Origin: a bacterium
GTDB taxonomy: Bacteria; JAHJDO01
Assembly (NCBI GenBank): GCA_018812485.1
Contig: JAHJDO010000062.1
Coordinates: forward strand, 1-57,961
Length of the DNA stretch: 57,961 nt
Direction of reading: 5' to 3'
The notes beneath the pieces were generated by a model, which worked only from the letters and a program-made list of their open reading frames with translations, was not told the origin of the DNA and made no database searches. Shown one piece after another: positions 29,878 through 52,996 of the stretch. The stretch's first letter is position 1; every line of letters begins with the position of its first letter. Made by a program: the position numbers and the translations under genes.

Positions 29878-30027
29878 ATGGCAAGACCTAATTATCAATA
29901 TGAAAAGCGTATGAAAGATTTAGCAAAAAAGAAAAAGCGGGAAGAAAAAAGACAACGCAAGCTAGATAAAAAAAATTTAAAGTCCAAAGAGAGCCCTGAT
30001 CAATCTCGCGATGACGAAGAAAAATAA
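29878..30027 (+). CDS. 49-residue Lys/Arg-rich conserved-type small protein
   Basis: ATG directly follows the aminotransferase TAA with GAGGAGG just ahead. The protein begins MARPNYQYEKRMKDLAKKKK and is more than 40% charged, a predicted single helix with an acidic end. Small proteins of this kind (basic, starting MARPN/MGRK) recur in many Gram-negatives with unknown function. It overlaps the ketoreductase gene by 17 bases, so the three genes are likely co-translated. Confidence 0.6.
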   Translation: MARPNYQYEKRMKDLAKKKKREEKRQRKLDKKNLKSKESPDQSRDDEEK

Positions 30028-30751
30028 TAACACAAAAACTGCTCTGATTATTGGCGGAAGCCGGGGTATAGGACGAGCGATAGCTCTGCGTCTTGCTAGG
30101 TCAGGATTTGATATATGGCTGACTTATAAAAGCAACCATACTGCTGCTAAGAGGGTAAAAGAAGAGATAGAGAAAATAGGAAGAGCGTGCGATACTCTCT
30201 CTTTTGACGTTTCCAACTATAATGAGACCAAAGCTGCTCTGGAGAAAAGGCTAGACACTCACACTCCCTACATAGTTGTATATAACACAGGCATTACCAG
30301 AGACAATCTTTTGGTATGGATGACAAAGGAAGAATGGGATACGGTACTCTCTACAAATCTGGATGGGTTTTATAATGTAATGCACTTTGTTTTATTCCCA
30401 ATGCTGCGGGAAAAACAGGGGCGCATCGTTGTTGTATCATCAGCTTCTGGACAAGTTGGCCGTGCAGGTCAGGCAAACTATTCTGCTTCAAAAGCAGGAT
30501 TAATCGGCGCTGCTAAGGCGTTAGCGCTGGAGGTTGGCAAGAAGAATATTCTTGTTAATGTTGTTGCTCCGGGTGTTATTGAGACAGATATGATTGAAAA
30601 TCTTCCTAAAGATAAGATACTTCCGCTTATTCCATTACAGAGGTTTGGGAATCCGGATGACGTTGCATCAGTAGTGAACTTTTTATGCACGGAAGAGCAT
30701 ATGTATATTCATGGTCAGGTCATTGGTATTAACGGCGGCTTGGCTCTCTAA
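30011..30751 (+). CDS. fabG: 3-oxoacyl-ACP reductase, polyene-cluster type
   Basis: 246 residues, short-chain dehydrogenase fold. NADP loop ALIIGGSRGIGRAIALRL; catalytic Ser in VVSSASGQVG; Tyr and Lys in YSASKAG. YNTGITRDNLLVWMTKEEWD resembles the ketoreductase of aryl-polyene clusters more than housekeeping FabG. The product would be the 3-hydroxyacyl-ACP that the two dehydratases act on. It is separated from the rest of the cluster by 2 kb of accessory genes. Confidence 0.82.
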   Translation: MTKKNNNTKTALIIGGSRGIGRAIALRLARSGFDIWLTYKSNHTAAKRVKEEIEKIGRACDTLSFDVSNYNETKAALEKRLDTHTPYIVVYNTGITRDNLLVWMTKEEWDTVLSTNLDGFYNVMHFVLFPMLREKQGRIVVVSSASGQVGRAGQANYSASKAGLIGAAKALALEVGKKNILVNVVAPGVIETDMIENLPKDKILPLIPLQRFGNPDDVASVVNFLCTEEHMYIHGQVIGINGGLAL

Positions 30752-32821: not shown

Positions 32822-34324
32822 ATGAAAAAATATGACGACATAATTGTGGGAAGCGGTGTCAGCGGTCTAACACTTGCGCTTTTACTTGGCATGAATGGGC
32901 ATAAAGTGCTGCTTGTTGAAAAAAACGCGCATATCGGAGGATCATTGAGGCGGTTTTATTCTCAAGGCATTCCTTTTGATACAGGATTTCACTTTACAGG
33001 CGGATTCTATAAAAATGGGATTCTTCAGGATATGCTGATGGTTCTCGGTATTAGGGATCATATTCAGCCCATTTATCTGTCAGAGGATAAAAACAACCAG
33101 TTTATAATTGGTCCGGAACAGACAACATATAATCTGCCAACTGGTTATCAGCGAATAATAGAAAAGATAAAGGAATACTTTCCTTGCGAAGAACATGCCA
33201 TAGACAAATATTTTGCTATGATCAAGAATGTTTGTACTCATACTGCTGCCATGGATTTGCGTAAAATTTCTATGCCAACGACTTTTTTGGATGAGGATCT
33301 TTTAAGTCTTGAGGATGCTTTGAGACAATTAACTAATAATCACAAGTTGAAAGCGCTGCTGGCCGGATACAGCATGTGTTACGGGGTTAAACCTCAAGAG
33401 ATTTCATTTGCCAATCACAGCAGAATTTGTTACAGCCTGTATGAATCCGTTGCCAGAGTAAAGGACGGTGGTGATGCATTTATCAGAGCATTTCAGAAAC
33501 GTTTTGGAGAATTCGATATTGAAATTATGCTCGATAAGCATATTACAGAATGTGTCGATATCCAGAATAATTATGTAGGACGTTTTGTTCTGAATACAGG
33601 AGAAGAAATATCCTGTGACCAGTGTATCTTTACAATACATCCCAAGGAAGTATTAAAGACCTTGCCTAAGAACCATTTGAGCAAGGCTTTTGTTGATAGG
33701 GTCTCAGCATTTGAATCGTCAGCAGGGTTCTTTTCAGTGTATGGCGTTGTGGAATCTCCTAACTTAGCAGATGATTTTACCCCAACAATCACCTCTCTAT
33801 TTCCAACAGCGGATATAAATCAGTTGCTCGATCCGGGAAATAGCGAGATGCCGGCTATGGTAATTATGCAGAATGCAGAAGAAGTAAATGGGAAATCCTA
33901 TCATGTATTGAGCGCGCTTGAAGTATCTTTCCCTGAGCATGTAGAAGCATGGAAGCTTTCAAAGCATGGGAATCGCCCTTCTGACTACCTGAAATATAAA
34001 CAACAACATGTTAGCAGTATCAAAGATCGTATTATCGAAAAATTCCCAGAGTATAAGGATTCTTTTAAAGTAATAGATTCTGCATCTATCCTAACATTCA
34101 GAGATTATTTAAATTCTCCCGATGGATCAGCGTATGGTGTGAAACAGAAGATCAGACAGTTTAATCTTTTTGGAAAACTTCCTCTTCGCAATATATATGC
34201 TGCCGGCCAGAGCTCTATGCTGCCGGGAGTGGTAGGGGCAATGATGTCTTCATTTATTGTTGGAAGAACTATTGTTGGAAAAGAAAAATATAATCATTTT
34301 ATTGAGCAGAGATTATGCAATTAA
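32822..34324 (+). CDS. CrtI/phytoene-desaturase-like FAD oxidoreductase
   Basis: 500 residues. FAD loop DIIVGSGVSGLTLALLLG plus VEKNAHIGGSLRRF. The C-terminal motif is NIYAAGQSSMLPGVVGAMMS, as in carotenoid desaturases and isomerases. Members remove or move double bonds in long chains. No carotenoid gene is nearby; the partners are KS, ACP and dehydratase genes, so an acyl-bound polyene or similar chain is the likely substrate. The stop overlaps the next KS gene by 10 bases. Confidence 0.82.
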   Translation: MKKYDDIIVGSGVSGLTLALLLGMNGHKVLLVEKNAHIGGSLRRFYSQGIPFDTGFHFTGGFYKNGILQDMLMVLGIRDHIQPIYLSEDKNNQFIIGPEQTTYNLPTGYQRIIEKIKEYFPCEEHAIDKYFAMIKNVCTHTAAMDLRKISMPTTFLDEDLLSLEDALRQLTNNHKLKALLAGYSMCYGVKPQEISFANHSRICYSLYESVARVKDGGDAFIRAFQKRFGEFDIEIMLDKHITECVDIQNNYVGRFVLNTGEEISCDQCIFTIHPKEVLKTLPKNHLSKAFVDRVSAFESSAGFFSVYGVVESPNLADDFTPTITSLFPTADINQLLDPGNSEMPAMVIMQNAEEVNGKSYHVLSALEVSFPEHVEAWKLSKHGNRPSDYLKYKQQHVSSIKDRIIEKFPEYKDSFKVIDSASILTFRDYLNSPDGSAYGVKQKIRQFNLFGKLPLRNIYAAGQSSMLPGVVGAMMSSFIVGRTIVGKEKYNHFIEQRLCN

Positions 34325-35556
34325 AACGGGTAGTAATAACTGGTGTTGGAGCTATTTCTCCTTTAGGCAATGACGTTCCCGCTCTTACTGCGGGAATTGA
34401 ACAAAGGAAAAGCGCTGTTCGTTATATGGAGGATTGGAACCAGTACATCGGCCTGCGCAGTTTAGTTGCAGCGCCTGCAGAAGTTAAAAATGAAAAATTA
34501 ATACCGAGGCAGAACAGACGATCAATGGGAAGAATGAGTATTTTTGCAGTTCAGGCAGCGCAACAAGCTCTATCGGACGCTGATATAGACCGTGAAGCAT
34601 TATCTACAGGAAGGATTGGATGTATTATTGGGTCAACTACAGGAAGCGCTCAAAGCCTCACCGAGACCTTTGAAATTATGATTCCAGCAAAGGATCTAAC
34701 TCAGCTCAATTCAACAAAATTCTTTCAGTGCATTTCCCATACAGCAGCTATGAATGTATCTCAGTATCTGGGAATAACAGGCTGCGTTATGGCAACCTCT
34801 GCTGCGTGCGCGTCTGCATTACAAGCTATTGGAGCAGGCTGCGATCTGATCAGGTTAGGCAAACAAGATGCGCTATTATGCGGCGGTGCAGAAGAACTTC
34901 ATCCAACTGTTACTGGATCTTTTGATATTCTCTTTGCAACATCAACAAATTATAATCAATCTCCTCATAAGACCCCGCGGCCTTTTGACATGAAACGGGA
35001 CGGTTTGGTATGTGGAGAAGGAAGCGGGATACTTGTTCTGGAGGAGTATGAAAGGGCTGTAGCAAGAAAGGCGAAAATATACGCTGAAGTTATAGGATAT
35101 CATACATGCGGAAATGGAGCTCATATCAGTCAGTCCAGCAAAGCTGGTATGGTTTCATGCATCAGTAATGCCTTAAGCAATGCGCATGTTGAACCAAAAG
35201 ATGTTGATTACATCAATGCTCATGCAACAGCAACGGTCCAGGGCGACAAGGAAGAAGCTCAGGCAATAAGAGAGATATTCGGCGATCGTGTTCCAGTAAG
35301 CAGTTTAAAGGGATATATCGGACATACACTCGGCGCATCAGGAGCATTGGAACTAATTGCTTCTTTGGTAATGATGAAAAAAGGGTGCATATATCCCACT
35401 CTAAACCTTGAAAAAGTAGATCCGGATTGTGAAGGCATTTGTCATGTAATGAAACCATTAAGCAGAGAAATTAAAATTATGGTAAAAAATTGCTTTGCAT
35501 TTGGCGGGATTAACGCAGCGCTGGTGTGCAAAAGAATGACTAATTCTAATGGATAA
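34315..35556 (+). CDS. beta-ketoacyl-ACP synthase, FabF-type, intact triad
   Basis: 413 residues. Nucleophile Cys165 in TSAACASALQA, His303 in NAHATATVQGD and His337 in YIGHTLGASGA form the complete Cys-His-His triad of an elongating ketosynthase. It is translationally coupled to the CrtI-like gene. It would elongate the ACP-bound chain with malonyl-ACP. Twelve bases after its stop a RhuM-Fic gene intervenes before the ACP gene. Confidence 0.9.
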   Translation: MQLKRVVITGVGAISPLGNDVPALTAGIEQRKSAVRYMEDWNQYIGLRSLVAAPAEVKNEKLIPRQNRRSMGRMSIFAVQAAQQALSDADIDREALSTGRIGCIIGSTTGSAQSLTETFEIMIPAKDLTQLNSTKFFQCISHTAAMNVSQYLGITGCVMATSAACASALQAIGAGCDLIRLGKQDALLCGGAEELHPTVTGSFDILFATSTNYNQSPHKTPRPFDMKRDGLVCGEGSGILVLEEYERAVARKAKIYAEVIGYHTCGNGAHISQSSKAGMVSCISNALSNAHVEPKDVDYINAHATATVQGDKEEAQAIREIFGDRVPVSSLKGYIGHTLGASGALELIASLVMMKKGCIYPTLNLEKVDPDCEGICHVMKPLSREIKIMVKNCFAFGGINAALVCKRMTNSNG

Positions 35557-35568
35557 AAGATAGATAAG

Positions 35569-36549
35569 ATGAGCGTTAGGGATTTGTCTAAAGGACAGGT
35601 TATAGTATATGAGAATAAGGTTGAAGTCAGGCTGGAAAAAGAAACTGTCTGGCTTGCACAAAAGCAGATGGCTATCCTTTTTGAAAAAGGAATTCCAACG
35701 ATAAACGAACATATTAAAAATATTTACAAAGAGAAAGAACTGGATAAAAATTCAACTATTCGGAAATTCCGAATAGTTCAAACCGAAGGTGGAAGACAAG
35801 TAGAAAGGGATATAGAGTTTTATAATTTAGATGTTATTATCTCTATTGGTTATCGTGTAAAATCCCATTGCGGCACCCAATTTCGTATCTGGGCAACAAA
35901 TGTGCTTAAGCAGCATTTGGTTAACGGATATACGATCAATGAGAAACGGTTAAAGTCTGCCCGGCATAAGTATCAGGAATTACAGAAATCATTAAAACTT
36001 TTAGGCAACGTTATTCAGATTGAAGCAGTTTCCGGTGAGACAAAAGGACTTATTCAGGTGATAACCGAATACTCACATGCGCTTGATATTCTGGATGATT
36101 TTGATCACGAGCGGCTTTCTGTGCCAAAAGGAACAAAACAGTCAAAATTTAAGCTTACCTATGAAGAAGCTAGAAAAATAATTGAGGCTATGAAGCGAAA
36201 ATTTAAGCATTCAGCATTTGTTGGACAGGAAAAAGACGAAAGTTTCAAAAGTTCAATAGGGACGATTTACCAAACATTTGGCGGCGTAGACCTTTATCCA
36301 ACCGTTGAGGATAAAGCAGCTCATTTATTATATTTTGTTACTAAGAACCACAGTTTTGTGGACGGAAATAAACGCATTGCAGCAGCGCTTTTTATTTGCT
36401 TCTTGCAAGGCAATGGGCTTTTAGTCCGTAAAGATGGAGATAAACGGATTGATGATAATACACTTGTAGCCTTAACACTTATGATTGCAGCCAGTAAAGC
36501 ATCTGAAAAGGAGACAATGATTAAGGTAATATTAAATCTATTAATATAG
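35569..36549 (+). CDS. RhuM-type DNA-binding domain fused to a Fic/Doc domain
   Basis: 326 residues. Residues about 1-120 match the RhuM virulence-protein pattern (VRLEKETVWLAQKQMAILF, YNLDVIISIGYRVKS, FRIWATNVLKQHL). Residues about 210-326 are a Fic domain with the full motif HSFVDGNKR beginning at His261, so AMP- or phosphate-transfer activity is possible. It fits exactly between the KS and ACP genes with 12-base gaps on each side. This family is normally part of mobile or defence modules. Confidence 0.85.
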   Translation: MSVRDLSKGQVIVYENKVEVRLEKETVWLAQKQMAILFEKGIPTINEHIKNIYKEKELDKNSTIRKFRIVQTEGGRQVERDIEFYNLDVIISIGYRVKSHCGTQFRIWATNVLKQHLVNGYTINEKRLKSARHKYQELQKSLKLLGNVIQIEAVSGETKGLIQVITEYSHALDILDDFDHERLSVPKGTKQSKFKLTYEEARKIIEAMKRKFKHSAFVGQEKDESFKSSIGTIYQTFGGVDLYPTVEDKAAHLLYFVTKNHSFVDGNKRIAAALFICFLQGNGLLVRKDGDKRIDDNTLVALTLMIAASKASEKETMIKVILNLLI

Positions 36550-36561
36550 GGGGAATTTGGA

Positions 36562-36825
36562 ATGGATAAGCAGGAAATTATAGATAAAATAAATCGGGTA
36601 TTTGAGGAATCCTTTGAGATTAAAAAAGAAAAACTCTTACCGCAAGCGAATATTTTTGAAGATCTTGGCTTGGACAGTTTAGATGTTGTGGACCTGGTTG
36701 TTGCCTTACAGCAGAAGTTTGGCATTAAAATACGCGATGACCAACGCCTCAGAAACATCCGGACACTTGAGGATATCTACAAATTTGTTCTTACTTTAAA
36801 AGATGAAGAAAACGCAGTTAATTAA
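36562..36825 (+). CDS. acyl carrier protein
   Basis: 87 residues. The phosphopantetheine site is Ser39 in FEDLGLDSLDVVDLVVAL, followed by the acidic helix. It is the only ACP of the cluster, whereas APE clusters usually have two. It is preceded by AGGGGGAATTTGG and followed after 5 bases by the acyltransferase. Confidence 0.93.
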   Translation: MDKQEIIDKINRVFEESFEIKKEKLLPQANIFEDLGLDSLDVVDLVVALQQKFGIKIRDDQRLRNIRTLEDIYKFVLTLKDEENAVN

Positions 36826-36830
36826 TTGGA

Positions 36831-37583
36831 ATGAAGACCTTAGAGCTGATATATTTTAACATAGTGTTTTATACACTGTTCTTATCGTTCTCTGTGTTTA
36901 GTATTCCTATTTTAAGTTTATCTGTTATTTTTCTTGGTTTGTTTTCATCTCGCCGCAAGACTATGAAGCGATTTCGCAGAGCAATCAATTGGTACGGCAA
37001 TGTAATTATCAGAGTTCTTCCGTTTCCTTTTGTGCGTTTCAGGTATAAAGATTATGCAAAGAATAAAGGCAGAGGTCCGTATATTTTTGTTTGTAATCAC
37101 CGCTCCAGCTCAGATCCATTTTTAATTGGATGCCTTCCCTATGAACTTATTCAGATTGTAAATACATGGCCATTTCGTCTTCCGGTGCTGGGGATATTTG
37201 CAAGATGGGCGGGTTATTTGAATGTCAAGAGAATGCAGTTTAAGAAATTTTCCTATAAAACAATCGAGTTACTCGGACAGGGAGTTTCCATTGTTGCATT
37301 TCCTGAAGGAACACGTTCCAGAAATAAAAAAATCGGACAGTTTCACAGCTCAATCTTTCGCGTTGCCTTGCAAGCGCAATGTCCGATTGTACCTATATGT
37401 ATTTCCGGGAATGAGAATATCCCTCCACGCGGATCACTTCTCTTGCATCAGGGAATAATCAGACTGCACAAATTGCCAGGTCTCGAATGGGAACAGTACA
37501 AGGATTTAGGACCGTTTAAGCTTAAAAACAAAGTGCGTGATATAATAGCTTCGGAGCTTGCTGTTATGGAGGATGGGGCATGA
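36831..37583 (+). CDS. PlsC-type 1-acylglycerol-phosphate acyltransferase-like
   Basis: 250 residues. N-terminal membrane segments (ELIYFNIVFYTLFLSFSVF and IPILSLSVIFLGLF). Catalytic motif NHRSSSDPF (NHx4D) and substrate motif FPEGTRSRN. It probably transfers the finished acyl chain from ACP to a lipid acceptor at the inner membrane. It overlaps the ligase gene by 4 bases (ATGA). Confidence 0.88.
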   Translation: MKTLELIYFNIVFYTLFLSFSVFSIPILSLSVIFLGLFSSRRKTMKRFRRAINWYGNVIIRVLPFPFVRFRYKDYAKNKGRGPYIFVCNHRSSSDPFLIGCLPYELIQIVNTWPFRLPVLGIFARWAGYLNVKRMQFKKFSYKTIELLGQGVSIVAFPEGTRSRNKKIGQFHSSIFRVALQAQCPIVPICISGNENIPPRGSLLLHQGIIRLHKLPGLEWEQYKDLGPFKLKNKVRDIIASELAVMEDGA

Positions 37584-38875
37584 GAGATTTATATCGTTAT
37601 CGTGATATAGCGTTTAGTTCGCCGAAAGAAATCCGAGAGATTCAGGAAAGGCAATTACAGGAACACATTGCATACTGTATCAAACATTCTCCTTTTTACA
37701 GCAAGGCGCTGAAGAATATCAAAGCTGAATGCAGTAATATAACGATTAATCAGCTATCAAAACTTCCCTTTACTGAGAAGTCTGATATTGAGCAAAATAA
37801 TGACGATTTTTGCGCAGTTACTTCTGATAAGATTGTTGATGTTGTTTTATCTTCAGGAACAACGGGCAAACCGATCAGGATGATGTATACTGATTATGAC
37901 TTAAAGCGGCTTGCCTATAATGAGGAAAGATCGTTTACGGGATGCGGACTGACTTCCAATGATACGGTGTTATTAACCTGCACAATGGATCGCTGTTTCG
38001 TTGCAGGTCTGGCGTATTTTCTTGGGATACGCAGTGTTGGCGCAGCAGCTATTAGAAACGGGCATAACAGTCTTGAGAGTCATCTGCAGATTATAAAACA
38101 AATGGAGCCAACAGCTCTTATCGGAGTTCCGAGTTTTCTGAGGAAACTGGGTTTGTACTTAAAGGAAAGCGGAATAGATCCTGATAAAACTGCTGTGTCC
38201 AAACTAATTTGTATTGGTGAACCGTTACGCGGAAAAAATCTTGAATTGTTAAAAGTAGGGGATGATTTGCAGAGCATATGGCAGGCACATGCTTTTTCCA
38301 CATACGCTTCTTCTGAGATTGTAACTACATTCTGTGAATGTACTGCTCAGCAAGGAGGCCATTCCCTTCCTGATCTGGCAGTTGTAGAAATCATTGATAA
38401 AAACGGCACCGTTCTTCCTCCTGGTAATACAGGCGAAATCGTTATAACGCCAATGGCAGTAGAAGGAATGCCTCTGATACGGTTTAAGACAGGTGATGTA
38501 AGTTTTCTGATTGATGAGCAATGTTCTTGCGGACGATTCTCTTCCAGGCTGGGGCCGATTATGGGAAGGAAAAAACAAATGATGAAGATTAAAGGAACTA
38601 CTCTCTATCCGCAGGCAATATATTCTGTCTTAGAAGAGATTGAGGCAATAAATGACTATTATGTAACAGTATCCGGAGAAAGCGAACTTTCAGATATCAT
38701 AGAAATCAATGTATCAATTAATGATTCGTCATGCACCGCAGATATGATACAGGATAAACTTCAGGCGCGTCTGAGAGTAAAACCTGAGATAATAATCGTC
38801 GATTCAGAAGCCATTAAACAGAAGGTCTATGATCCAAAGTCGCGAAAGCCAATTCGCTTTATAGATAGGAGATAA
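37580..38875 (+). CDS. PaaK-like adenylate-forming ligase
   Basis: 431 residues. The phosphate loop is VLSSGTTGKPIRM near residue 90. ASSEIVTTFCE and RFKTGDVSFLI are the later ANL motifs, and a small C-terminal domain has MMKIKGTTLYP. This is the phenylacetate-CoA ligase type, which activates carboxylic acids. It may load a starter acid onto ACP or CoA. No ammonia lyase or chorismate lyase is nearby, so an aromatic starter is not supported. Confidence 0.8.
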   Translation: MRDLYRYRDIAFSSPKEIREIQERQLQEHIAYCIKHSPFYSKALKNIKAECSNITINQLSKLPFTEKSDIEQNNDDFCAVTSDKIVDVVLSSGTTGKPIRMMYTDYDLKRLAYNEERSFTGCGLTSNDTVLLTCTMDRCFVAGLAYFLGIRSVGAAAIRNGHNSLESHLQIIKQMEPTALIGVPSFLRKLGLYLKESGIDPDKTAVSKLICIGEPLRGKNLELLKVGDDLQSIWQAHAFSTYASSEIVTTFCECTAQQGGHSLPDLAVVEIIDKNGTVLPPGNTGEIVITPMAVEGMPLIRFKTGDVSFLIDEQCSCGRFSSRLGPIMGRKKQMMKIKGTTLYPQAIYSVLEEIEAINDYYVTVSGESELSDIIEINVSINDSSCTADMIQDKLQARLRVKPEIIIVDSEAIKQKVYDPKSRKPIRFIDRR

Positions 38876-38883
38876 ATAAAACA

Positions 38884-40353
38884 GTGAGTTGTCACACCCC
38901 AATACCAAATTTCGAATTTGCACGAGAGGAAATAGAAGATGCAGTACGCAATGGCAGGCTTCTATCTATGGAAATTGAACCCAGTCTGCGTTGTAATTTC
39001 CACTGTCCATATTGTTATATACCTGAGAATTCTTCTCTTGAAAACGAGTTGACCGTAGAGGAAATCTGCGATGTTATTTTACAAGCGCAGGATCTTGGAG
39101 CAAAAAAAATTATTATTCTCGGCGGAGAGCCGATGATATATCCGCATATTATGGAAATAATTAAGTTTATCAGAACGCATCATCTTAATGTGGAGGTATT
39201 TACCAATGGTTCTAATATTACTGCTGATATAGCAAAACAGCTTTTTGACTATGGAGTAAATGTAGTTCTAAAAATGAACACGTTTAATGAGCATACTCAG
39301 GATATGCTTGCCGGGAAAAAGGGAGCGTTCAAGACCATTCAGGAAGCATTCCACAATCTAAAGCAAGCAAGACGGCCTTCCGGAGAAACATTTCTGGCAG
39401 TCAGTACCGTTATATGCTCTCAGAATATTGATGAGTTGGTGGACATGTGGCAAAGACTGCGGGATCAGAATATTATCCCGTATTTTGAGATGATTACTCC
39501 GCAGGGAAATATTAGACAAAACGGATGGTTAAATATTGAATCTCAAAAGATACATGATATTTTTTGTAAAATTGCCGAAATTGACCGTACCCACTATGGA
39601 TACTTCTGGGAGCCTCAGCCTCCTCTGATAGGGAATAGATGCCTGCGGCACCAGTTTTCATGTCTTGTTACTTCTCAAGGATATGTTACGCCGTGTGTTG
39701 GGGTAACTATACCGGTTGGAAGCATACGAGAGCAAAAGCTTCGAGATATTATAAAAGACAGTGAGGTCATTCAGGATCTTAGAAACTACCATGATACAAT
39801 GAAGGCTCCTTGCCGTGAATGCGAAAAATCAAATGAATGTTACGGATGCCGCGGAGCAGCATACCAGCTGACAGGCGATTATCTGGCTTCTGACCCTATG
39901 TGCTGGAAGAATGTTGATAAACAGGGTAAAATTGCCAGTTTACCAATTGCAGTTGAAGAACTAATTCCGCAGAAATCGCCAATGAGAGTCATTGATACAC
40001 TTGTGAAAGTTGGTGAGCGTTCAGCAGATGTAACTGTGACATTGTCGAAAGATATGCTATTTATTGATGAAGACGGTCTACTTGACGAGGTTGCGTATCT
40101 TGAAATGATCGCGCAGGCAATAGCAGCGCTAAGCGGATTTAAACATATGGGTGCATCCAAACCGGCGCCGGGAGGATTCCTGCTTGGAGCGAAAAAGCTT
40201 GAGATATTAGGAAAAGCGCATGTTGGAGATACATTAAATATATCATTCTATAAATATGCAAGGTATGGCGGTTTTGGCATTGTTAAAGGAACCGTATCGC
40301 GGGGCAACCACGTGCTTGCCAGAGGAGAGGTAAAGATCTGGCATGAGATATGA
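38884..40353 (+). CDS. radical SAM enzyme fused to a hotdog dehydratase
   Basis: 489 residues from a GTG with AGGAGA 12 bases upstream. Residues about 25-300 form a radical SAM domain: Cys37, Cys41 and Cys44 in CNFHCPYC, then ILGGEPMIYP. Residues about 310-345 hold a SPASM-like Cys cluster (CRECEKSNECYGCRG). Residues about 355-489 are a FabA/FabZ/ApeP-like hotdog domain (ELIPQKSPMRVIDTLVKVGE; GGFLLGAKKLEILGKAHVGD). Radical chemistry is thus tethered to a 3-hydroxyacyl-ACP dehydratase. The junction is continuous without frameshift. Located between the ligase and cutA. Confidence 0.85.
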   Translation: MSCHTPIPNFEFAREEIEDAVRNGRLLSMEIEPSLRCNFHCPYCYIPENSSLENELTVEEICDVILQAQDLGAKKIIILGGEPMIYPHIMEIIKFIRTHHLNVEVFTNGSNITADIAKQLFDYGVNVVLKMNTFNEHTQDMLAGKKGAFKTIQEAFHNLKQARRPSGETFLAVSTVICSQNIDELVDMWQRLRDQNIIPYFEMITPQGNIRQNGWLNIESQKIHDIFCKIAEIDRTHYGYFWEPQPPLIGNRCLRHQFSCLVTSQGYVTPCVGVTIPVGSIREQKLRDIIKDSEVIQDLRNYHDTMKAPCRECEKSNECYGCRGAAYQLTGDYLASDPMCWKNVDKQGKIASLPIAVEELIPQKSPMRVIDTLVKVGERSADVTVTLSKDMLFIDEDGLLDEVAYLEMIAQAIAALSGFKHMGASKPAPGGFLLGAKKLEILGKAHVGDTLNISFYKYARYGGFGIVKGTVSRGNHVLARGEVKIWHEI

Positions 40354-40661
40354 ATAAAATGATTTTTCTTTACATTTCCAATGAATCAGCCAAAGAGGCA
40401 AAAAAAATTGCCAGGCACTTGCTTGAAAAACGTATGATTGGCTGTGCGAATATTTTCCCAGTCAATGCTATGTATTGGTGGAAAGGCAAAATTGCCGATG
40501 AAACGGAGGTTGTGCTTATTGCTAAAACAACGAAGGAGAATTATCAAAAAGTTCGGGATGAAATTGCCAGAATCCATCCTTTTGACACTCCTTGCATAAT
40601 CAAGCTGGACGCTGATCCCAATGAAAAGTATTTACAATGGATCAAAAGTGAACTCAAATAG
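40350..40661 (+). CDS. cutA: CutA1-type divalent cation tolerance protein
   Basis: 103 residues, cytoplasmic trimer in the family. MIGCANIFPVNAMYWWKGKI and HPFDTPCIIKL are the family signatures. It overlaps the fusion enzyme gene by ATGA, hence co-translated, which is unusual for cutA. Its role here is unclear. Confidence 0.92.
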   Translation: MNKMIFLYISNESAKEAKKIARHLLEKRMIGCANIFPVNAMYWWKGKIADETEVVLIAKTTKENYQKVRDEIARIHPFDTPCIIKLDADPNEKYLQWIKSELK

Positions 40662-40720
40662 GCAGTGAGCCGGAATGGAATCCGCTTTTACTGGTATTAT
40701 TTTGCTAAATCAGTAAAGGT

Positions 40721-40747
40721 TTGCTATATTTTAGATAGTTTTATAAT
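40721..40747 (+). promoter_or_regulatory. possible promoter of the small membrane-protein gene
   Basis: TATAAT at 40742-40747 is perfect; TTGCTA at 40721-40726 gives a short 15-base spacer. It would allow the cassette-like gene to be expressed independently. Confidence 0.35.
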
Positions 40748-40801
40748 GAGGAATCGAGAAAATATGGATTCCATATATTAATTGTTAGGAGAAAATAAAA
40801 T

Positions 40802-41086
40802 ATGTCAATAGACCCGAAAGTATTGTTTCCAATATTAGAAAATACTGGTGAATCACAAGTAAGAATAAAACTTGCACAAGGAGTATACGGAGAAGAGAAA
40901 ATTCCTATTGTTTATGAATGGCTCCGCATAAAAGATGAAGAACGAATTAATCTTTCTTCTTCTCGCAATAAAGCAGCAGCTTTAGAACAACTCCGTATAG
41001 CAAGTAGTGCAAAAAATGCAGCATGGATTGCTGCTATCGCTGCAATTATTGCTGCGGCAACTACTATATTTGTTGTTGTGAAATAA
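40802..41086 (+). CDS. small tail-anchored membrane protein, cassette-like
   Basis: 94 residues. A soluble N-terminal half (GVYGEEKIPIVYEWLRIKDE) is followed by an Ala-rich helix and one C-terminal membrane segment (AAWIAAIAAIIAAATTIFVV). AGGAG precedes the ATG by 9 bases. No family recognised. The attC-like site begins 13 bases after the stop, so gene plus site have the anatomy of an integron gene cassette, inserted between cutA and the lolA-like gene. Confidence 0.6.
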   Translation: MSIDPKVLFPILENTGESQVRIKLAQGVYGEEKIPIVYEWLRIKDEERINLSSSRNKAAALEQLRIASSAKNAAWIAAIAAIIAAATTIFVVVK

Positions 41087-41212: not shown

Positions 41213-41248
41213 TACAAATCAGGTTTTGAAATTATGTTTGGAGCAACT

Positions 41249-41890
41249 ATGAATAAAATCACAATAATACTAATCGCATTATGTATGTCTCTAGTCTCGC
41301 TTAATGCTTACACTGAGCAGAGTGTAGAGGATGTGCTCAGTAGACTTGAGGTGAAGATGTCGGAGATAAAAACTTTGCAAACTGATTTTGTTCAGGAGAA
41401 AAAGCTGGCGATCTTTGATAGAGAGATTATTTTGAAGGGCAAAATATTTCTTAAAAAGCCGGATCTTTTTGCATGGCATACTGAAGAGCCAACTCGGTAT
41501 TCCATGGTTATAAGGGATGATATTATTTCCCAGTGGGATGAAGATATAGACCAGGTTCAGAAGGTAAGTATGAAGGATAATCCTGCGTTTCAAACCGTTG
41601 TCGGGCAAATGAGAAAGTGGCTTTCAGGCATATATATGCCATTACTGGAAGAATACAATATAACAGTACTCGGGCAAAACCCGGTTTCTCTTAAATTCAC
41701 GCCGCGCGAAAATACAATGGCTTATAATATTATCAACTATGTAAGGATTGTATTCAGAGAGGATGAACGCTATATCCACGAGATATACATAAATGAGAAA
41801 ACAGGCGATTCTACGCTTCTCAGGTTTAATGACACCATGCTGAATACTCCGATCGATGATGCAGCATGGGAGGTCAAACCGCGTGGCTGA
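41249..41890 (+). CDS. LolA-like periplasmic lipid carrier
   Basis: About 213 residues from the ATG at 41249 (GGAG 6 bases upstream; an ATG at 41234 would also be in frame). Signal peptide MNKITIILIALCMSLVSLNA. The mature part follows the LolA half-barrel: IKTLQTDFVQEKKLAIFDRE, KGKIFLKKPDLFAWHTEEP. APE and flexirubin clusters carry such a LolA homologue, thought to move the lipid product across the periplasm. The 3' end overlaps the MMPL gene. Confidence 0.82.
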   Translation: MNKITIILIALCMSLVSLNAYTEQSVEDVLSRLEVKMSEIKTLQTDFVQEKKLAIFDREIILKGKIFLKKPDLFAWHTEEPTRYSMVIRDDIISQWDEDIDQVQKVSMKDNPAFQTVVGQMRKWLSGIYMPLLEEYNITVLGQNPVSLKFTPRENTMAYNIINYVRIVFREDERYIHEIYINEKTGDSTLLRFNDTMLNTPIDDAAWEVKPRG

Positions 41891-44240
41891 TAAACGGAAA
41901 CGTCTTATATCCGTGCTTGCAGCAGGCATAATCATTTTTGCAGCGATTGGTCTCAGGTTTATTTCTTTTGATAATAACATTGAACTAATGCTTCCTGCGA
42001 ATCCTGAGATTCTTCGCAGTATGCGTTTTCTCAGAGACTCAAATCTTTCGGATAAGGTTATTCTTTCTCTAAAACTGAAATCTTCAAAATATACAACTCA
42101 AGACCTTATTCAGGCTGTTGACCAATTAGAAAAGGCTTTAAAGCCGCCTCTGATAACAGATGTAATAAGCGGCATTTCCAAAGCAGATCTAGTGCAGGAG
42201 ATGCATTTATTTATGAGGTATGTTCCGCAGCTGCTCAACGAACAGGCTCTCTCCAAAATTGATAGACAGATAACCCCTGAAGGAGTAAAAACGAGCTTAA
42301 GCAGAAACTATCAGCAATTACTGACTCCTGGCAGTGGATTTGTAATGCCGTTCATTCGCTCTGACCCGCTTGGGATAAAATCCGGATTTCTTGCTAATAT
42401 AGGAAAGCTTTCCAGTTCATTAGGATATAAGGTTAAGATTAGGGATGGACATTTTATCAGTCAGAACGGCAGAAATGCTATGCTTATTCTTAAAACTCCT
42501 GTACGTCTTACTGATGGATTCGGCTCCAAAAAGCTGGTGGCGTATCTGCATAAACAGTTAGAGTCTCTACCTGAATTTGTTTCAGCTGATATCATAGCTG
42601 GTCACATTCATACAATCAGCAATGAAGATGTAATAAAAAGGGATATTCTCCTGACATTGACTATTGCCTCAGTTGCCTTTCTCTTATTATTCCTGTTCAT
42701 ATTCAGGGATATAAGGGCAATTCTTATCTTTCTTATACCTCTGATATCAGTTCTTGTTTCCATAAATCTCTCAGCTATTGTTCTTGGAAAGTTGTCATAT
42801 TTTATTATTGGTATGGGAGCTGTTATTGCCGGCATTGCTGTAGATTATGGGATTCACGTTTATCTGGCCGTACGCACAGGAGCTGGCCGGCCTGATGCAG
42901 TTAAGAAAATAATAAAACCGGTAATAATTGCTGCATTAACTACAATAGGTGTTTTTGCTGCATTCTTCTTTTCCAGTGTTCAGGGGTATCATCAGCTCGC
43001 CCTTTTCTCAATCATCAGTATTATTCTCTGTCTTATCTGTGCCTTGTTTGTCTTACCCTATCTTTTAACCGGGAAGCATTACATGGAGCTTCCTGCTATA
43101 CTCAAACAAAGAAGTTCTATGCACTCGCAGGTTTTCGATCGGATATGTGTTGCCTGCTGGGGAGTGATTATAATTGCTGCAATAGCTCTATCGTGGCAGG
43201 TAGAATTTAATAGCGATATTAGTCAATTGGATGGGAGTAAACAAGAGATTATACAGACTGAACAGGAATTCCATAATGTGTGGGGAGGCGCGGATAAACC
43301 AGCAATCTTAGTGATATCGGGGGAAAATTTGGAAGAAGCGCTTCAGTGTAATGAGCGCATTTACACCGAAGCAGTAAATGAAATAGGAGAAAAAATTTTT
43401 TCAAGTTTTGCAGAATTGTGGCTGTCAAATCAAGCACGAATAGCAAACTCTGCGCGCTGGAACAAGTTCTGGAGAGAAGGAAGAGAAACAAAATTGAAAG
43501 AGCTTCTCCAAGAGCATGGTCAGGCATATCATTTTTCCGATGATGCATTTTCCCCGTTTTTTAAAAATCTCTATACTGAAAAGGTTATTAAAAATACACC
43601 TGAGGGGCTTACTTTCTTTGACCAGTTAAAAGAACGATTTGTACTGAAGAAAGCAGATGAATATCAGGTGTTATCATTTTTTCCGGATAAGGATAAATGT
43701 GTTAAGACGCTGAACGCAATAATCAGCCGTTATCCGAGGACATTCTTAGTATCCAGAAATGCTTTTTCCAGCATACTTTCTCAGGCAGTTTCTTCAGAAG
43801 TTATTTTTTTATCGGTAATTGCTGGGCTGTTAATTCTGATATTAACCTGTTTATTGCTAAGAAACATACGGCTAACTGTGCTTGCCCTGATTCCGGTTAT
43901 CACAGGCATTCTATTGATATTAGGGATCATTCCTGTACTGGGGTTATCTCTAAATGCTCCTTGTGTTATTGCCGGGATAATTGTTATTGGTCTCTGCATT
44001 GACTATGGGATATTCATGGTTTATACTTGTGAATATAATTTAAAAACAGGAACGCGCATGGCAGTTTCATTGTCAGCTCTCACAACAGTTATTGGGGCAG
44101 GTGCGCTTTTGTTTGCTCTGCATCCGGTATTGTTTTCTATTGGGATAACACTTGTAATAGGAGTATCAGGAGGGTATATTTCAGCGCTATTGGTTATTCC
44201 CTCAATGTATAGATTATGGCAAAAACCAAAAAAAGCATAG
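41883..44240 (+). CDS. MMPL/RND-type lipid exporter
   Basis: About 785 residues from GTG at 41883, which follows GGAGG and overlaps the lolA-like stop. Twelve membrane helices are expected in the 1+5, 1+5 RND arrangement with two large periplasmic loops. AVIAGIAVDYGIHVYLAVRT and GIIVIGLCIDYGIFMVYT are the duplicated TM4-type motifs with the Asp-Tyr-Gly of MMPL proteins. It probably extracts the lipid from the inner membrane and hands it to the LolA-like carrier. Confidence 0.87.
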   Translation: MADKRKRLISVLAAGIIIFAAIGLRFISFDNNIELMLPANPEILRSMRFLRDSNLSDKVILSLKLKSSKYTTQDLIQAVDQLEKALKPPLITDVISGISKADLVQEMHLFMRYVPQLLNEQALSKIDRQITPEGVKTSLSRNYQQLLTPGSGFVMPFIRSDPLGIKSGFLANIGKLSSSLGYKVKIRDGHFISQNGRNAMLILKTPVRLTDGFGSKKLVAYLHKQLESLPEFVSADIIAGHIHTISNEDVIKRDILLTLTIASVAFLLLFLFIFRDIRAILIFLIPLISVLVSINLSAIVLGKLSYFIIGMGAVIAGIAVDYGIHVYLAVRTGAGRPDAVKKIIKPVIIAALTTIGVFAAFFFSSVQGYHQLALFSIISIILCLICALFVLPYLLTGKHYMELPAILKQRSSMHSQVFDRICVACWGVIIIAAIALSWQVEFNSDISQLDGSKQEIIQTEQEFHNVWGGADKPAILVISGENLEEALQCNERIYTEAVNEIGEKIFSSFAELWLSNQARIANSARWNKFWREGRETKLKELLQEHGQAYHFSDDAFSPFFKNLYTEKVIKNTPEGLTFFDQLKERFVLKKADEYQVLSFFPDKDKCVKTLNAIISRYPRTFLVSRNAFSSILSQAVSSEVIFLSVIAGLLILILTCLLLRNIRLTVLALIPVITGILLILGIIPVLGLSLNAPCVIAGIIVIGLCIDYGIFMVYTCEYNLKTGTRMAVSLSALTTVIGAGALLFALHPVLFSIGITLVIGVSGGYISALLVIPSMYRLWQKPKKA

Positions 44241-44905
44241 CGTTATATTTGCTGTTTGCAGGATTAGTTGGATTGTGCAGTACAGGGTGCAGCAGTGTTC
44301 CGTTTAAAAAGGTTCAATATGTTTCGGTCAGCAAAGTGCAGCCTGCAGCAATTCGGGAACAATTTGCCAGTACACTTCCTCGAAAATTTAAGATAGTTAG
44401 CACAATTGTTTTTCAGTATAGGCGGCATAAGTTCTCTGCTATTGGCTACACTGATATTGATTCTCTTCAAAAGCTTTTCAAAATTGTCTGTCTTAATCAT
44501 GCAGGTATTAAGTTATTTGAGTTAGCCGGAAATGATAATAGCGTTGAATGCAAGTTCGCTTTTGAAGGAGCTTCTTTCCCCGGCAATTTTGCCCAAGCAG
44601 TGGCAGATGATATCAGAAGAATTTATTTTGACTCTATTCCTGATCCTGAAGCTAAAATATATAAAAAGAAAAAGAAGATTGTTTTCAGGCAGCCTTCAGA
44701 AACAGGTGTAATGGAATACATATTTGCCGGCGCTGACAATCTCTTAGTTGAAAAACGGTATTATAAAGGGTGGCGAAGAATCTGGAGTGTTTTTTATTAT
44801 GAGTATCGCAGAAAGAACGGAAAACTATATCCATCAGGCATTATGCTCAGACATCATAAATACAACTATCAGCTAACTGTGCGATTGAAGGAGATTCAAA
44901 CATGA
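44216..44905 (+). CDS. outer-membrane-type lipoprotein (DUF3261-like)
   Basis: 229 residues. The N-terminal segment LYLLFAGLVGLCSTGC is a lipoprotein signal with the lipidated Cys in STGCSS. The rest is beta-rich and LolB-like in character. A lipoprotein of this kind is standard beside the MMPL gene in APE clusters and may receive the cargo at the outer membrane. It overlaps the MMPL gene by 25 bases and the dehydratase by 4. Confidence 0.65.
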   Translation: MAKTKKSIALYLLFAGLVGLCSTGCSSVPFKKVQYVSVSKVQPAAIREQFASTLPRKFKIVSTIVFQYRRHKFSAIGYTDIDSLQKLFKIVCLNHAGIKLFELAGNDNSVECKFAFEGASFPGNFAQAVADDIRRIYFDSIPDPEAKIYKKKKKIVFRQPSETGVMEYIFAGADNLLVEKRYYKGWRRIWSVFYYEYRRKNGKLYPSGIMLRHHKYNYQLTVRLKEIQT

Positions 44906-45288
44906 ATAAACTTATGCAGGAGATAAAACAATGCATGTTTGATTTAGCTGAAACTAAGAAAGGGGAAGTAACTGCGCGCTTTCTTTTTCCCGCAGAGTTC
45001 ATTGGGTTTCAGGGGCATTTTCCAGACAAACCTGTTCTACCGGGTGTTTGTAAAATACAGGCGGTTATAGTAATGCTTCAGGCATGGGAAAAGGGGAATG
45101 TCAGACTGAAGGAAATTGTTCTGGCAAAATTCCTTTCACCAGTTTCCCCCGAAGAAGAAATTGTTTTTAATTACAGTAAGCAAACAGAAAGCAACGGCGA
45201 AGCACTCATAAAAGCATCAGTAACCAGTCAGGATAAAAAAGTTGCTGAACTGCAACTGAAGGTAAGTTTTAAAAATGAAACACAGTAG
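44902..45288 (+). CDS. hotdog 3-hydroxyacyl-ACP dehydratase (FabZ/ApeI-like)
   Basis: 128 residues. GFQGHFPDKPVLPGVCKIQAV is the FabZ active-site motif with the catalytic His. The C-terminal strands are typical of the hotdog fold, but the protein is somewhat divergent. It dehydrates the 3-hydroxyacyl-ACP from the ketoreductase. Together with the fused dehydratase this gives two, as in APE systems. Confidence 0.85.
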   Translation: MNKLMQEIKQCMFDLAETKKGEVTARFLFPAEFIGFQGHFPDKPVLPGVCKIQAVIVMLQAWEKGNVRLKEIVLAKFLSPVSPEEEIVFNYSKQTESNGEALIKASVTSQDKKVAELQLKVSFKNETQ

Positions 45289-46438
45289 AACTAATATGCA
45301 TGCGCCAGAGGCAGTTGTTGTTGCCTGTGACCTCATAACTCCTTACGGCTTGGGCATTGATGCGTGCTGGAATGGGCTTTTATCCGGGAAGACCGCAATA
45401 AATCCATTAGACCGTTTTGATACAGATGTATTTCAAACAAAAAAAGCGGCTACAATCGCTGAACTCAAGACTGGTCAAAGTGATTCTCTGGTAATGCAGA
45501 TGCTGAAGCCGTTGCTAGAGAAAGCGTCTGCTATTATTCCAAAAGACGCTCTTTTAATTTTAGCAACCACAACAGGCGAAATAGATATTCTGGAGAAACA
45601 GGTTCTTAATGCCAAAGATAATGCGGACGAAAGCGCACCAGGATATTTGTTGGAGAAGGTACAATGTTTGAGCGGAATAAAAGCGCCCGGGATTATTGTA
45701 TCTGCAGCATGTACTTCTTCAAGCAGCGCAATTGCGCAGGCAGGAGCAATGATCCGTAGTAAAGAGCATGACTGTGTGCTGATAGTTGCCTGTGATATTG
45801 TAAGTGAATTTGTTTTTGCCGGGTTTTCTTCTTTGATGGCATTAGATAAAGATACAGCGCGGCCTTTTGATAAAAACAGAAGCGGTCTAAGTCTTGGCGA
45901 AGCAGCAGGATTTGTTCTGGTTATGAGTAAAGAAAGAGCTATTCAAGAAGAAAGGTCTATTATTGGAGAAATAGCCGGTTGGGGACTGACAAATGATGCT
46001 AATCATATGACCGGTCCGTCCAGAGATGGAAGCGGACTGGCGCTGGCTATGCGTAAAGCCATGCGATCAGCAGATATTTCTGAGGATGCTGTAGGATGCA
46101 TAGCTGCGCATGGCACTGGAACTATGTATAATGACGCTATGGAAATGAAGGCGTTTAAATCTGTTTTTGCCTCCGGAGCTCTTCCAACATATTCCATTAA
46201 GGGAGGAATAGGCCATACAATGGGAGCGGCAGGTCTGGTGGAAACAATTGTGGCATTGCGCTCGTTAAGAGAAAAACTTGTTCCTCCTACAGTTAATCTG
46301 CTCGTTGCTGATGATGAAGCTGAGGGCTGGGTCTCCACTGAGCCGGACTCATTTGACAACCCTGTAACTATTTCTATTAATGCTGGTTTTGGCGGAGTGA
46401 ATTCCGCATTGGTATTGAAAAAAGGGAATAGGCAGTAG
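45275..46438 (+). CDS. second beta-ketoacyl-ACP synthase, intact triad
   Basis: 387 residues. Cys146 in VSAACTSSSSAIAQ, His279 in AAHGTGTMYND and His314 in GGIGHTMGAAGLVE are all present. Compared with the first KS the active-site surroundings differ (ACTS versus ACAS), suggesting a different chain-length or priming role. It overlaps the dehydratase gene by 14 bases and is followed after 2 bases by a KS-like protein. Confidence 0.9.
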   Translation: MKHSRTNMHAPEAVVVACDLITPYGLGIDACWNGLLSGKTAINPLDRFDTDVFQTKKAATIAELKTGQSDSLVMQMLKPLLEKASAIIPKDALLILATTTGEIDILEKQVLNAKDNADESAPGYLLEKVQCLSGIKAPGIIVSAACTSSSSAIAQAGAMIRSKEHDCVLIVACDIVSEFVFAGFSSLMALDKDTARPFDKNRSGLSLGEAAGFVLVMSKERAIQEERSIIGEIAGWGLTNDANHMTGPSRDGSGLALAMRKAMRSADISEDAVGCIAAHGTGTMYNDAMEMKAFKSVFASGALPTYSIKGGIGHTMGAAGLVETIVALRSLREKLVPPTVNLLVADDEAEGWVSTEPDSFDNPVTISINAGFGGVNSALVLKKGNRQ

Positions 46439-46440
46439 TT

Positions 46441-47016
46441 ATGATAGTTATTTCAGGTATTGGCTGGATTAGTAAAAAAAAATATGGCTGTGTGAAAAAG
46501 GCAGTATGCAGAGGTTATACTGATATAAAGTCCCTGCATTCAAAGCTGCAGAATGAATCGATATTTTTGTATCCTGTGAAGAATTTCGGAAGATTTGACA
46601 TGACTTCAAAAATGGCTTGCTGTGCAGGCGCTCTGGCACTGCATGATGCAGGAGTAAAGTATTCCGAAAAACGCAAACAGGATATTGGAATTATCGGCAC
46701 AAATACTGATGGATGTCTAAGATCCAATCTTAATTATTTCAAAGATTATGTGCAGACAGGCAGAAAACTTGCGCGTGGTAATCTTTTTATCTATACACTT
46801 CCATCAAGCTCTCTGGCAGAAGCAGCAATTCACTTTGGATTTCAGTGTCCATTGCTGTATATCATGTTTCCACAAAAACAGGTTTCTTCCTTACTGCAAT
46901 ATGTAGAAGGCATAATATCCCGCAAAGAGGCATCAACAGTGCTGGCTATGAAAGTAGATGAAAAGAAGGCTGTATGTTTTGTTCTGAGCGGGGAAGATGA
47001 CTCTTCTTCCAAATAA
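46441..47016 (+). CDS. short ketosynthase-like protein lacking the active Cys
   Basis: 191 residues, about half of a KS. It begins as a KS N-terminal domain (MIVISGIGWISKK; MTSKMACCAGALALHDAGV; IGIIGTNTDGCLRS). Where the nucleophile Cys would lie it reads NLFIYTLPSSSLAEAAIHFG, with no Cys. Similar short KS-like proteins occur in APE and flexirubin clusters. It probably pairs with the adjacent intact KS as a chain-length-factor-like subunit. Confidence 0.72.
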   Translation: MIVISGIGWISKKKYGCVKKAVCRGYTDIKSLHSKLQNESIFLYPVKNFGRFDMTSKMACCAGALALHDAGVKYSEKRKQDIGIIGTNTDGCLRSNLNYFKDYVQTGRKLARGNLFIYTLPSSSLAEAAIHFGFQCPLLYIMFPQKQVSSLLQYVEGIISRKEASTVLAMKVDEKKAVCFVLSGEDDSSSK

Positions 47017-51748: not shown

Positions 51749-52996
51749 ATGAAGATAAAACTAATATATCCCACATGGCCGAAACTAATGGATCAGACGG
51801 AATTTAATCTGCCTCCTCATGGTCCTGTGTGTTTTGCAGCAACGGTAAGTGATGATATTGAAATATCTTTTTGTGATGAGAATGTTGAGAAACTTGATTT
51901 TTCTGAAGATGCAGACTTGATTGTGCTCTCAGTTATGCTGACATGCCAGATGCCCCGCGCATGGGAAATTAGCGATTGGTATCGAGCTCATGGTAAGAAG
52001 GTGGTGTTTGGCGGCATTGCAACAATGCTTCATGCGGAAGAGACAATATCTCACGCTGATAGTGTTTTTTTGGGAGAGGCTGAAGGCAGGATTGATAAGG
52101 TTATTGATGATTTTAAGAAAGGACGTATGGAAAAGATGTATGATTTTTTCCATAATTTTCCGGATATGAACATAATTGGCACTGCCAGACGCAGCATTCT
52201 GAAGAGTGAATTATATAATTTTCGCGGCGTACAGATGGTTGATCTGGTGCATGCGTCCAGAGGATGCCGATTTAATTGTTTTCCTTGCTGCACACCATAT
52301 TTGGGAGGGCGCAAATTCAGACCGCGTCCTATTGATGCAGTAGTGAGGGAACTGGAAAGTATTGACAATAACCGCCTGTTTTTTGTTGATAATTCTATGG
52401 CGCAGAACGATGAATGGGAGAGAGAACTGTTTAAGGCAATTGCTCCGTTAAAAAAGAAATGGATATCTCATCCCATAAAGGATGATGACGAAATATTGAC
52501 GCTAGCCGCTAAAGCAGGATGTTGGTATGTATATCAGGCAATAATAGATACCTCAGATCATATTCGCAGAAGAGTCAAGCGGCTGCAGGAACATGGCATT
52601 GGGGTTGAAGGGACAGTTATTCTCGGGTTGGATTATCATGATGAAGATTACATAAAGAGATTAGTTGATTTTCTTCTTGAGATAGATCTTGACCTTGCCG
52701 AATTTACTATCCTTACTCCATTTCCTCATGCACCGATCAGAGCCCAGCTGGAAAAAGAAAACAGGATCCTTCATAATAACTGGATTCAGTACACAACAGG
52801 GGAAGTTGTGTTTAAACCGGCAAAAATGACTGTGGACTCTTTGCAAAGCATGTATCACTATGCGTGGGAAACCTTTTACTCTGACTGCAGCAGGGAAATA
52901 AAGATGGCAAAACTGTTTCTTAAAGTTATTGAAAAAGAAAAAAAAGATGGGACTTATAAAAGAGCCAGATTGAATGCTAATCGAGCGTGGCCATGA
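51749..52996 (+). CDS. B12-binding-type radical SAM enzyme
   Basis: 415 residues. The N-terminal 140 residues look like the cobalamin-binding Rossmann domain of B12-dependent radical SAM proteins, though the DxHxxG cobalt-ligand motif is not evident. The cluster-binding motif CRFNCFPC lies near residue 180 (ASRGCRFNCFPCCTPYLGG). The C-terminus is helical and Lys-rich. Enzymes of this class catalyse C-methylations, cyclisations and rearrangements. It overlaps the next radical SAM gene by ATGA. Confidence 0.85.
   Translation: MKIKLIYPTWPKLMDQTEFNLPPHGPVCFAATVSDDIEISFCDENVEKLDFSEDADLIVLSVMLTCQMPRAWEISDWYRAHGKKVVFGGIATMLHAEETISHADSVFLGEAEGRIDKVIDDFKKGRMEKMYDFFHNFPDMNIIGTARRSILKSELYNFRGVQMVDLVHASRGCRFNCFPCCTPYLGGRKFRPRPIDAVVRELESIDNNRLFFVDNSMAQNDEWERELFKAIAPLKKKWISHPIKDDDEILTLAAKAGCWYVYQAIIDTSDHIRRRVKRLQEHGIGVEGTVILGLDYHDEDYIKRLVDFLLEIDLDLAEFTILTPFPHAPIRAQLEKENRILHNNWIQYTTGEVVFKPAKMTVDSLQSMYHYAWETFYSDCSREIKMAKLFLKVIEKEKKDGTYKRARLNANRAWP

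Follow-up and report, generated by a model that had tools for sequence, protein, structure and literature searches.

A 57,961-nucleotide stretch of bacterial DNA (hereafter the window) encodes, at 38884–40353 on the + strand, a 489-aa protein in which a radical SAM/SPASM enzyme is continuous with an ApeP-type hotdog domain. This locus raises the question of whether the fusion is genuine and what a radical enzyme does when it is attached to dehydratase machinery. An initial annotation of the window took the protein for a radical SAM/SPASM-like enzyme fused to an acyl-ACP dehydratase and concluded from the fusion that the radical enzyme acts on, or next to, the ACP-bound 3-hydroxy or enoyl chain. 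To our knowledge, neither a substrate nor a pathway position has been known for the radical SAM enzymes of ladderane-type clusters since their proposal in 2006–2009, and the fusion is of above-average interest because it offers a handle on them. A description of a radical SAM/SPASM-ApeP fusion was not found in the literature searched, in keeping with the initial annotation, which knew of no well-characterized enzyme of this architecture; the components come from known families, and it is their combination that lacks a description in that literature.

Reading Frame and Domain Architecture

The fusion gene is an uninterrupted frame from a GTG start codon at 38884 to a TGA stop codon at 40351–40353, and an AGGAG sequence about 12 nt 5′ of the GTG is a plausible ribosome-binding site. 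The radical SAM core (residues 31–188; 38974–39447) matches Pfam PF04055 with an E-value of 1.3e-24 and 87.7 bits against a cut-off of 29.5, and carries the motif CNFHCPYC (residues 37–44; 38992–39015), whose cysteines are the predicted ligands of the SAM-binding [4Fe-4S] cluster. Profile and motif together place the protein in the radical SAM superfamily, and the CxxxCxxC motif is present in all examined relatives, both fused and unfused, and gone in a single variant (G297) described below. The SPASM domain (39640–39903) matches PF13186 over residues 253–314 (E 5.1e-9; 36.7 bits against a cut-off of 21.5), which assigns the enzyme to the SPASM subgroup. Its eight cysteines (C253, C260, C271, C310, C313, C319, C322, and C340) are expected to bind two auxiliary [4Fe-4S] clusters, and their spacing of 6-10-38-2-5-2-17 is identical in 16 of 16 fused sequences and in nearly all unfused relatives. 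A linker of about 13 residues (341–353; 39904–39942), delimited by alignment of the fused relatives, leads to the ApeP-type hotdog domain (residues 354–489; 39943–40350), in which Glu407 (40102–40104) is kept and the position of the catalytic histidine is missing.

The AlphaFold models are of medium confidence (pLDDT of 60 for the fusion and 61 for the separate hotdog), at which the fold is readable and the domain geometry unreliable. In Foldseek comparisons, the N-terminal part matched radical SAM/SPASM folds and the C-terminal part matched FabZ/ApeP hotdogs. The two-domain reading of the initial annotation is thus borne out by Pfam, by the structure predictions, and by the PDB sequence match of the hotdog given below.

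Distribution and Conservation of the Fusion

The same fusion occurs at full length in L009, L012, L010, and L011, with 87, 71, 68, and 61% identity, respectively. A search for it in other genomes, which the initial annotation had proposed, found the fusion in 15 species-level genomes from several phyla: three genomes from the genus of the window, G038, L010, L012, and at least nine genomes among the 285 Omnitrophota sampled. Compared with near relatives, dN/dS is 0.11–0.21 in the core, the SPASM domain, and the hotdog, and both halves are therefore under purifying selection. An assembly artefact or a frameshift join is ruled out by this recurrence together with the dN/dS values; because the frame both recurs in relatives and is maintained by selection, the one continuous frame originally described stands, and the fusion is almost certainly genuine and conserved.

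In the tree of the fusion, a clade of unfused sequences from ladderane-like clusters is strongly separated from the remaining sequences. That the fusion arose once is not rejected by the tree (AU p 0.27, or 0.40 with L154 included); a single origin is compatible with these sequences rather than shown by them. The host genome (G000) is a small deep lineage; the genomes compared included four relatives of the same genus and none beyond the genus, from family to phylum level.

The Hotdog Half and Its Expected Partner

The last ~138 residues of the fusion match the ApeP-like profile PF22817 with an E-value of 5e-4 and 20.1 bits, under the curated cut-off of 27 bits. The best PDB sequence match of the fused hotdog is 6qsr_B (E 3e-7), the ApeP chain in the ApeI:ApeP crystal structure, and it is this match that identifies the domain as ApeP by sequence, the PF22817 score being below cut-off.

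FabZ requires a histidine (GHFP) and a glutamate (EAxAQ). In the fused hotdogs, the glutamate is retained and the catalytic histidine position is missing in 16 of 16, while the ApeI proteins of the fused operons keep the histidine in 13 of 13 and have the glutamate replaced by Q, L, G, or T, each of these counts including one locus (L012/L148) that was read twice. FabZ-like proteins of related clusters retain both residues. Such complete pairs are seen in the FabZ of the ladderane-like clusters L158 (16653–17063), L163 (6731–7159), and L162 (16885–17334), and the FabZ of another ladderane-like cluster (L160; 12939–13346) is without the histidine. A complete stand-alone FabZ-type dehydratase is excluded for the fused hotdog by the histidine missing from all 16 sequences.

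The expected partner subunit is encoded in the window at 44902–45288 (+ strand) by an ApeI-type hotdog protein, which is FabA/ApeI-like by Pfam and has 6qsr_A as its best PDB match. It keeps His39 of the GHFP motif (45016–45018) and has glutamine in place of the glutamate. An ApeI was detected in every fused genome checked, including those where it is encoded on another contig, and an ApeI with the histidine and without the glutamate therefore accompanies the fusion in the same operon or genome. ApeI and ApeP are described as heterodimerizing around one active site, and in Acinetobacter baumannii ApeI is fused to the starter ligase ApeH (PMC8041823). Because two proteins of the window match the two chains of one complex, have complementary residues, and agree with the published ApeI/ApeP pairing, the 44902–45288 protein is most likely the partner of the fused hotdog.

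The fused hotdog is very probably the ApeP half of a heterodimeric ApeI/ApeP-type dehydratase, as judged from sequence matches and active-site residues. The initial annotation was right about the FabZ/ApeP type of the domain, but since the catalytic histidine is absent, its "acyl-ACP dehydratase" has to be narrowed to a single subunit of a heterodimer, a subunit that would need the ApeI of the operon for dehydration of acyl-ACP. The same complementary loss of histidine and glutamate is found in the ApeI:ApeP heterocomplex of Xenorhabdus doucetiae (PDB 6QSR), whose two chains are matched here, although in the window ApeP bears a radical SAM/SPASM enzyme at its N terminus. The fused half in Acinetobacter is instead ApeI, and its fusion partner is the ligase ApeH (PMC8041823). 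The Xenorhabdus chain 6qsr_A is deposited as an AMP-dependent ligase.

The Operon Encoding the Fusion

In nearly all fused genomes, the gene lies in an operon of the order SDR-CrtI-KS-ACP-LPLAT-AMP-ligase-fusion-LolA-MMPL-DUF3261-ApeI-(thioesterase)-KS-half KS-B12 radical SAM-TIGR04072. In the window, where all of these genes are on the + strand, the operon begins with a 3-ketoacyl-ACP reductase (SDR, FabG/ApeQ-like; 30011–30751), a CrtI/phytoene-desaturase-like flavoenzyme (32822–34324), beta-ketoacyl-ACP synthase 1 (34315–35556), an acyl carrier protein (36562–36825), and a lysophospholipid acyltransferase-like protein (ApeD-like; 36831–37583). Directly upstream of the fusion is an AMP-dependent acid ligase (37580–38875), which is FlxY/PaaK-like and scores 480 bits (E 7e-144) against NCBIfam FlxY, whose cut-off is 520. 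Downstream are a LolA-like carrier (ApeL-like; 41234–41890), an MMPL/RND lipid exporter (ApeM-like; 41856–44240), a DUF3261 lipoprotein (ApeN-like; 44216–44905; E 1e-3, below cut-off), the ApeI-type protein, beta-ketoacyl-ACP synthase 2 (45275–46438), and a half-size ketosynthase-like protein (46441–47016) that is a possible chain-length factor, being ApeC-like by size only. Last in this order are a B12-binding radical SAM protein (51749–52996) and a TIGR04072 lipid-biosynthesis B12/radical SAM protein (52987–55479), which matches its NCBIfam profile with 640 bits against a cut-off of 360. The latter is fused to GT2 and DUF2062 in one 830-aa frame, and in G003 (L138; 17575–20000) the first and second parts lie in two overlapping frames.

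There are some departures from this order. A RhuM-plus-Fic/DOC gene (35569–36549, + strand) lies between synthase 1 and the ACP; at this place G003, a genome of the same genus, is without a gene. A CutA1 gene and a small unknown ORF lie between the fusion and LolA (40350–41086, + strand), whereas in most other operons LolA follows the fusion directly with a 4-nt overlap. The operon of the same-genus genome G004 is divided over two contigs (C4 and C14; L188 and L191), one holding the LPLAT-ligase-fusion unit, which is located among housekeeping genes, and the other the LolA-to-TIGR04072 unit. CrtI was not found in the stretch read of the G038 operon, and the L010 operon carries a 4HBT thioesterase gene.

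The window contains the aryl polyene gene set, namely an ACP, a ketosynthase pair, a ketoreductase, an ApeI/ApeP dehydratase, an LPLAT, and LolA/RND/DUF3261 export genes. It shares with described aryl polyene clusters the ACP, LPLAT, ligase, ApeI, ApeP, LolA, RND/MMPL, DUF3261, ketosynthases, and ketoreductase, and in L010 also the thioesterase (PMC8253772), but it adds a CrtI-like protein and three radical SAM proteins, and its ligase is FlxY/PaaK-like. Also unlike aryl polyene clusters, the fused genomes have few known enzymes for an aromatic starter: UbiC (PF04345) was detected in none of the 16 fused genomes, and the PF00221 ammonia lyase in only 2 of the 16 and was absent in 14. An aromatic starter (4-hydroxybenzoate or 4-coumarate) supplied by these two known enzymes, both largely absent, is accordingly rejected.

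Likeness to ladderane-type FASII (Kuenenia kuste3335–3352 and Desulfotalea psychrophila; Rattray 2009) lies in the radical SAM enzymes, the CrtI-like protein, the PaaK-type ligase, the extra ketosynthases, the MMPL-type exporter, and the TIGR04072 protein in the operon, and also in an unfused radical SAM/SPASM enzyme at the place of kuste3343 in the gene order. In contrast to the window, FabZ has a gene of its own in ladderane-type FASII (PMC4790861), and ApeI/ApeP, LolA, and DUF3261, which aryl polyene clusters also have, are additions of the window. No counterpart of the Kuste3338/3347 methyltransferases was seen in it.

The Radical SAM/SPASM Half and Its Unfused Relatives

The radical half shares the core CxxxCxxC motif and SPASM cysteines for auxiliary clusters with AhbD, NirJ2, and PqqE, which are its best NCBIfam matches; however, at 118–127 bits against cut-offs of 381–500, it is not a member of these families. 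Its highest score for a named family is 126.9 bits for AhbD (cut-off 500), and its best PDB sequence match is SkfB. On sequence comparison, the radical half represents a defined subfamily of SPASM enzymes that is also found unfused in ladderane-like clusters. Unfused forms, mostly 343–419 aa, are present in about 20 of the 395 Desulfobacterota, and the FASII clusters that hold them are of two kinds. One kind, represented by L158, has the order ligase-radical SAM/SPASM-B12 radical SAM-SDR-ACP-FabZ, and L163 has the same order without a called ACP. In the Desulfobulbaceae-type clusters, the unfused enzyme adjoins a B12-radical SAM gene and a CrtI-like gene rather than an FlxY/PaaK-like ligase. 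In G913 and most ladderane-like clusters, the unfused enzyme has the AMP-ligase as its neighbor. G063 has individual genes for the radical SAM/SPASM enzyme, ApeP, and ApeI, all within a single 27-kb contig.

The gene order of the unfused clusters L158 and L163 matches that of kuste3344–3339 in Kuenenia, as taken from PMC4790861, and this gene order suggests that the radical half corresponds to kuste3343. For a comparison with anammox bacteria (Planctomycetota), the 85-genome phylum of G043, a genome rich in PSD1 domains, was searched and yielded only one weak match.

A Natural Variant Without the Radical SAM Core

One fusion relative, G297 (L149; 9384–10517, + strand), has a decayed radical SAM core. 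All three radical SAM cysteines and about 120 core residues are lost, and 32 of 100 aligned residues of the remaining core are identical. The SPASM domain (58 of 93 residues identical) keeps all eight cysteines, and the ApeP domain (84 of 136) is as similar as in the control, and these two domains have 62% identity, as in controls. In G297, selection thus retained the dehydratase half. The remaining operon genes are present, including the elongation genes, and the AMP-ligase was not detected anywhere in the genome at a threshold of E 1e-60. All 15 intact fused genomes have this ligase immediately before the fusion, and G297 is the only one in which it is missing genome-wide.

Because G297 keeps the dehydratase half without the radical core, radical chemistry would not be needed in every round of dehydration and elongation. 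Moreover, the joint loss of core and ligase makes the radical step look tied to the acid substrate of the ligase. Given gene adjacency and one co-loss event, we put the chance of such a tie slightly below even. Against it count the Desulfobulbaceae-type clusters, where the ligase is not the neighbor of the unfused enzyme, and the failure to find UbiC, or in most genomes the ammonia lyase, as a source of an aromatic acid.

Proposed Function and Alternative Explanations

The ApeP hotdog of the fusion may pair with the operon ApeI to form a single-site 3-hydroxyacyl-ACP dehydratase, and through this pairing the radical SAM/SPASM half would be tethered to the dehydratase and the ACP docking zone, which makes radical chemistry near an ACP-bound substrate plausible. 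The radical half, with its predicted SAM cluster and pair of auxiliary [4Fe-4S] clusters, would generate a 5′-deoxyadenosyl radical that abstracts a hydrogen from a substrate, either acyl or aryl, and would pass an electron on to an auxiliary cluster. The net reaction may be an O2-free two-electron oxidation of the desaturation or oxidative decarboxylation type, a possibility somewhat short of an even chance that draws on the weak subfamily resemblance to AhbD, NirJ2, and PqqE, far below their cut-offs. The substrate would be the acid activated by the adjacent AMP-ligase, or a thioester derived from it, serving as a starter or accessory unit. The radical half would carry out priming or tailoring while docked at the dehydratase, a step that is not obligatory in each elongation round. 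Taken as a whole, the explanation of the fusion as a conserved two-part enzyme with a ligase-linked radical step, encoded in an APE/ladderane-like operon for anaerobic type II polyene-lipid synthesis, is a working proposal that we regard as not quite an even bet.

In the main alternative, the growing ACP-bound chain, as 3-hydroxyacyl or enoyl, is itself the substrate of the radical half, which would desaturate or isomerize it or form a C–C bond during elongation, with the hotdog handing over the substrate. The short linker that covalently tethers the two halves would fit such direct action, as would the ACP, two ketosynthases, and CrtI-like flavoenzyme of the operon. However, G297 dispenses with the radical core while retaining elongation genes and the dehydratase half, unfused relatives lack the hotdog, and in APE systems the other dehydratase half is fused to a starter ligase, which shows that a tether is not equivalent to action on the chain (PMC8041823). 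Direct action is therefore rather unlikely, and the conclusion of the initial annotation that the fusion means action on or next to the 3-hydroxy or enoyl chain does not follow, given the ApeI-ApeH precedent and G297. Improbable, too, is a tether serving as a scaffold only, in which the radical half uses a small free metabolite and the fusion serves dosage or complex assembly. Related clusters with unfused versions and the split genes on one contig in G063 would be expected from a scaffold, but the fusion is kept across phyla with a conserved linker region and a single origin is not rejected by the tree.

Another alternative is radical cyclization, in which enzymes of this SPASM family would close carbon rings, of the ladderane or another type, on an ACP-bound polyene, the fusion delivering the freshly dehydrated polyene. 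The gene order shared by L158 and L163 with kuste3344–3339 (PMC4790861), long proposed to act in ladderane synthesis (PMC2649909), and the presence of TIGR04072 in the same operon as the fusion point in this direction, but the hydrocarbons of Desulfotalea psychrophila, which has homologues (Kuste3343/DP1855), are acyclic and polyunsaturated, and it does not produce ladderanes (PMC2649909), and heterologous expression yielded no ladderanes (PMC4790861). We regard ring closure as quite improbable. The fused hosts are uncultured, and we know of no anammox or ring product in them, which also counts against it. SPASM proteins are mostly maturases, and with SkfB as best PDB sequence match, the radical half could be a peptide or protein maturase of the SPASM/RiPP type incidentally fused to a hotdog. 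That reading is rejected as very improbable: there is no conserved precursor-like small gene beside the fusion, which LolA adjoins in most operons; an RRE/PqqD domain was not detected in a profile search of the window proteins; and the gene context is that of fatty acid or polyketide synthesis in every case.

The fusion physically ties the radical enzyme family of ladderane-type clusters to the chain-building machinery, and its natural joining to a dehydratase half suggests that the ladderane-type radical enzyme works at an ACP-bound stage. More tentatively, and with the odds leaning against it, the radical SAM/SPASM enzyme may belong to the same family as kuste3343 and act, at the dehydratase of a polyene synthase that works anaerobically, on intermediates carried by ACP; if true, the fusion would be the first physical pointer to the substrate carrier and pathway position of a kuste3343-family enzyme. 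The fusion offers one construct, whose dehydratase part can be assayed separately, in which to seek the substrate of the radical enzyme, and the G297 variant and the split versions are ready-made comparisons.
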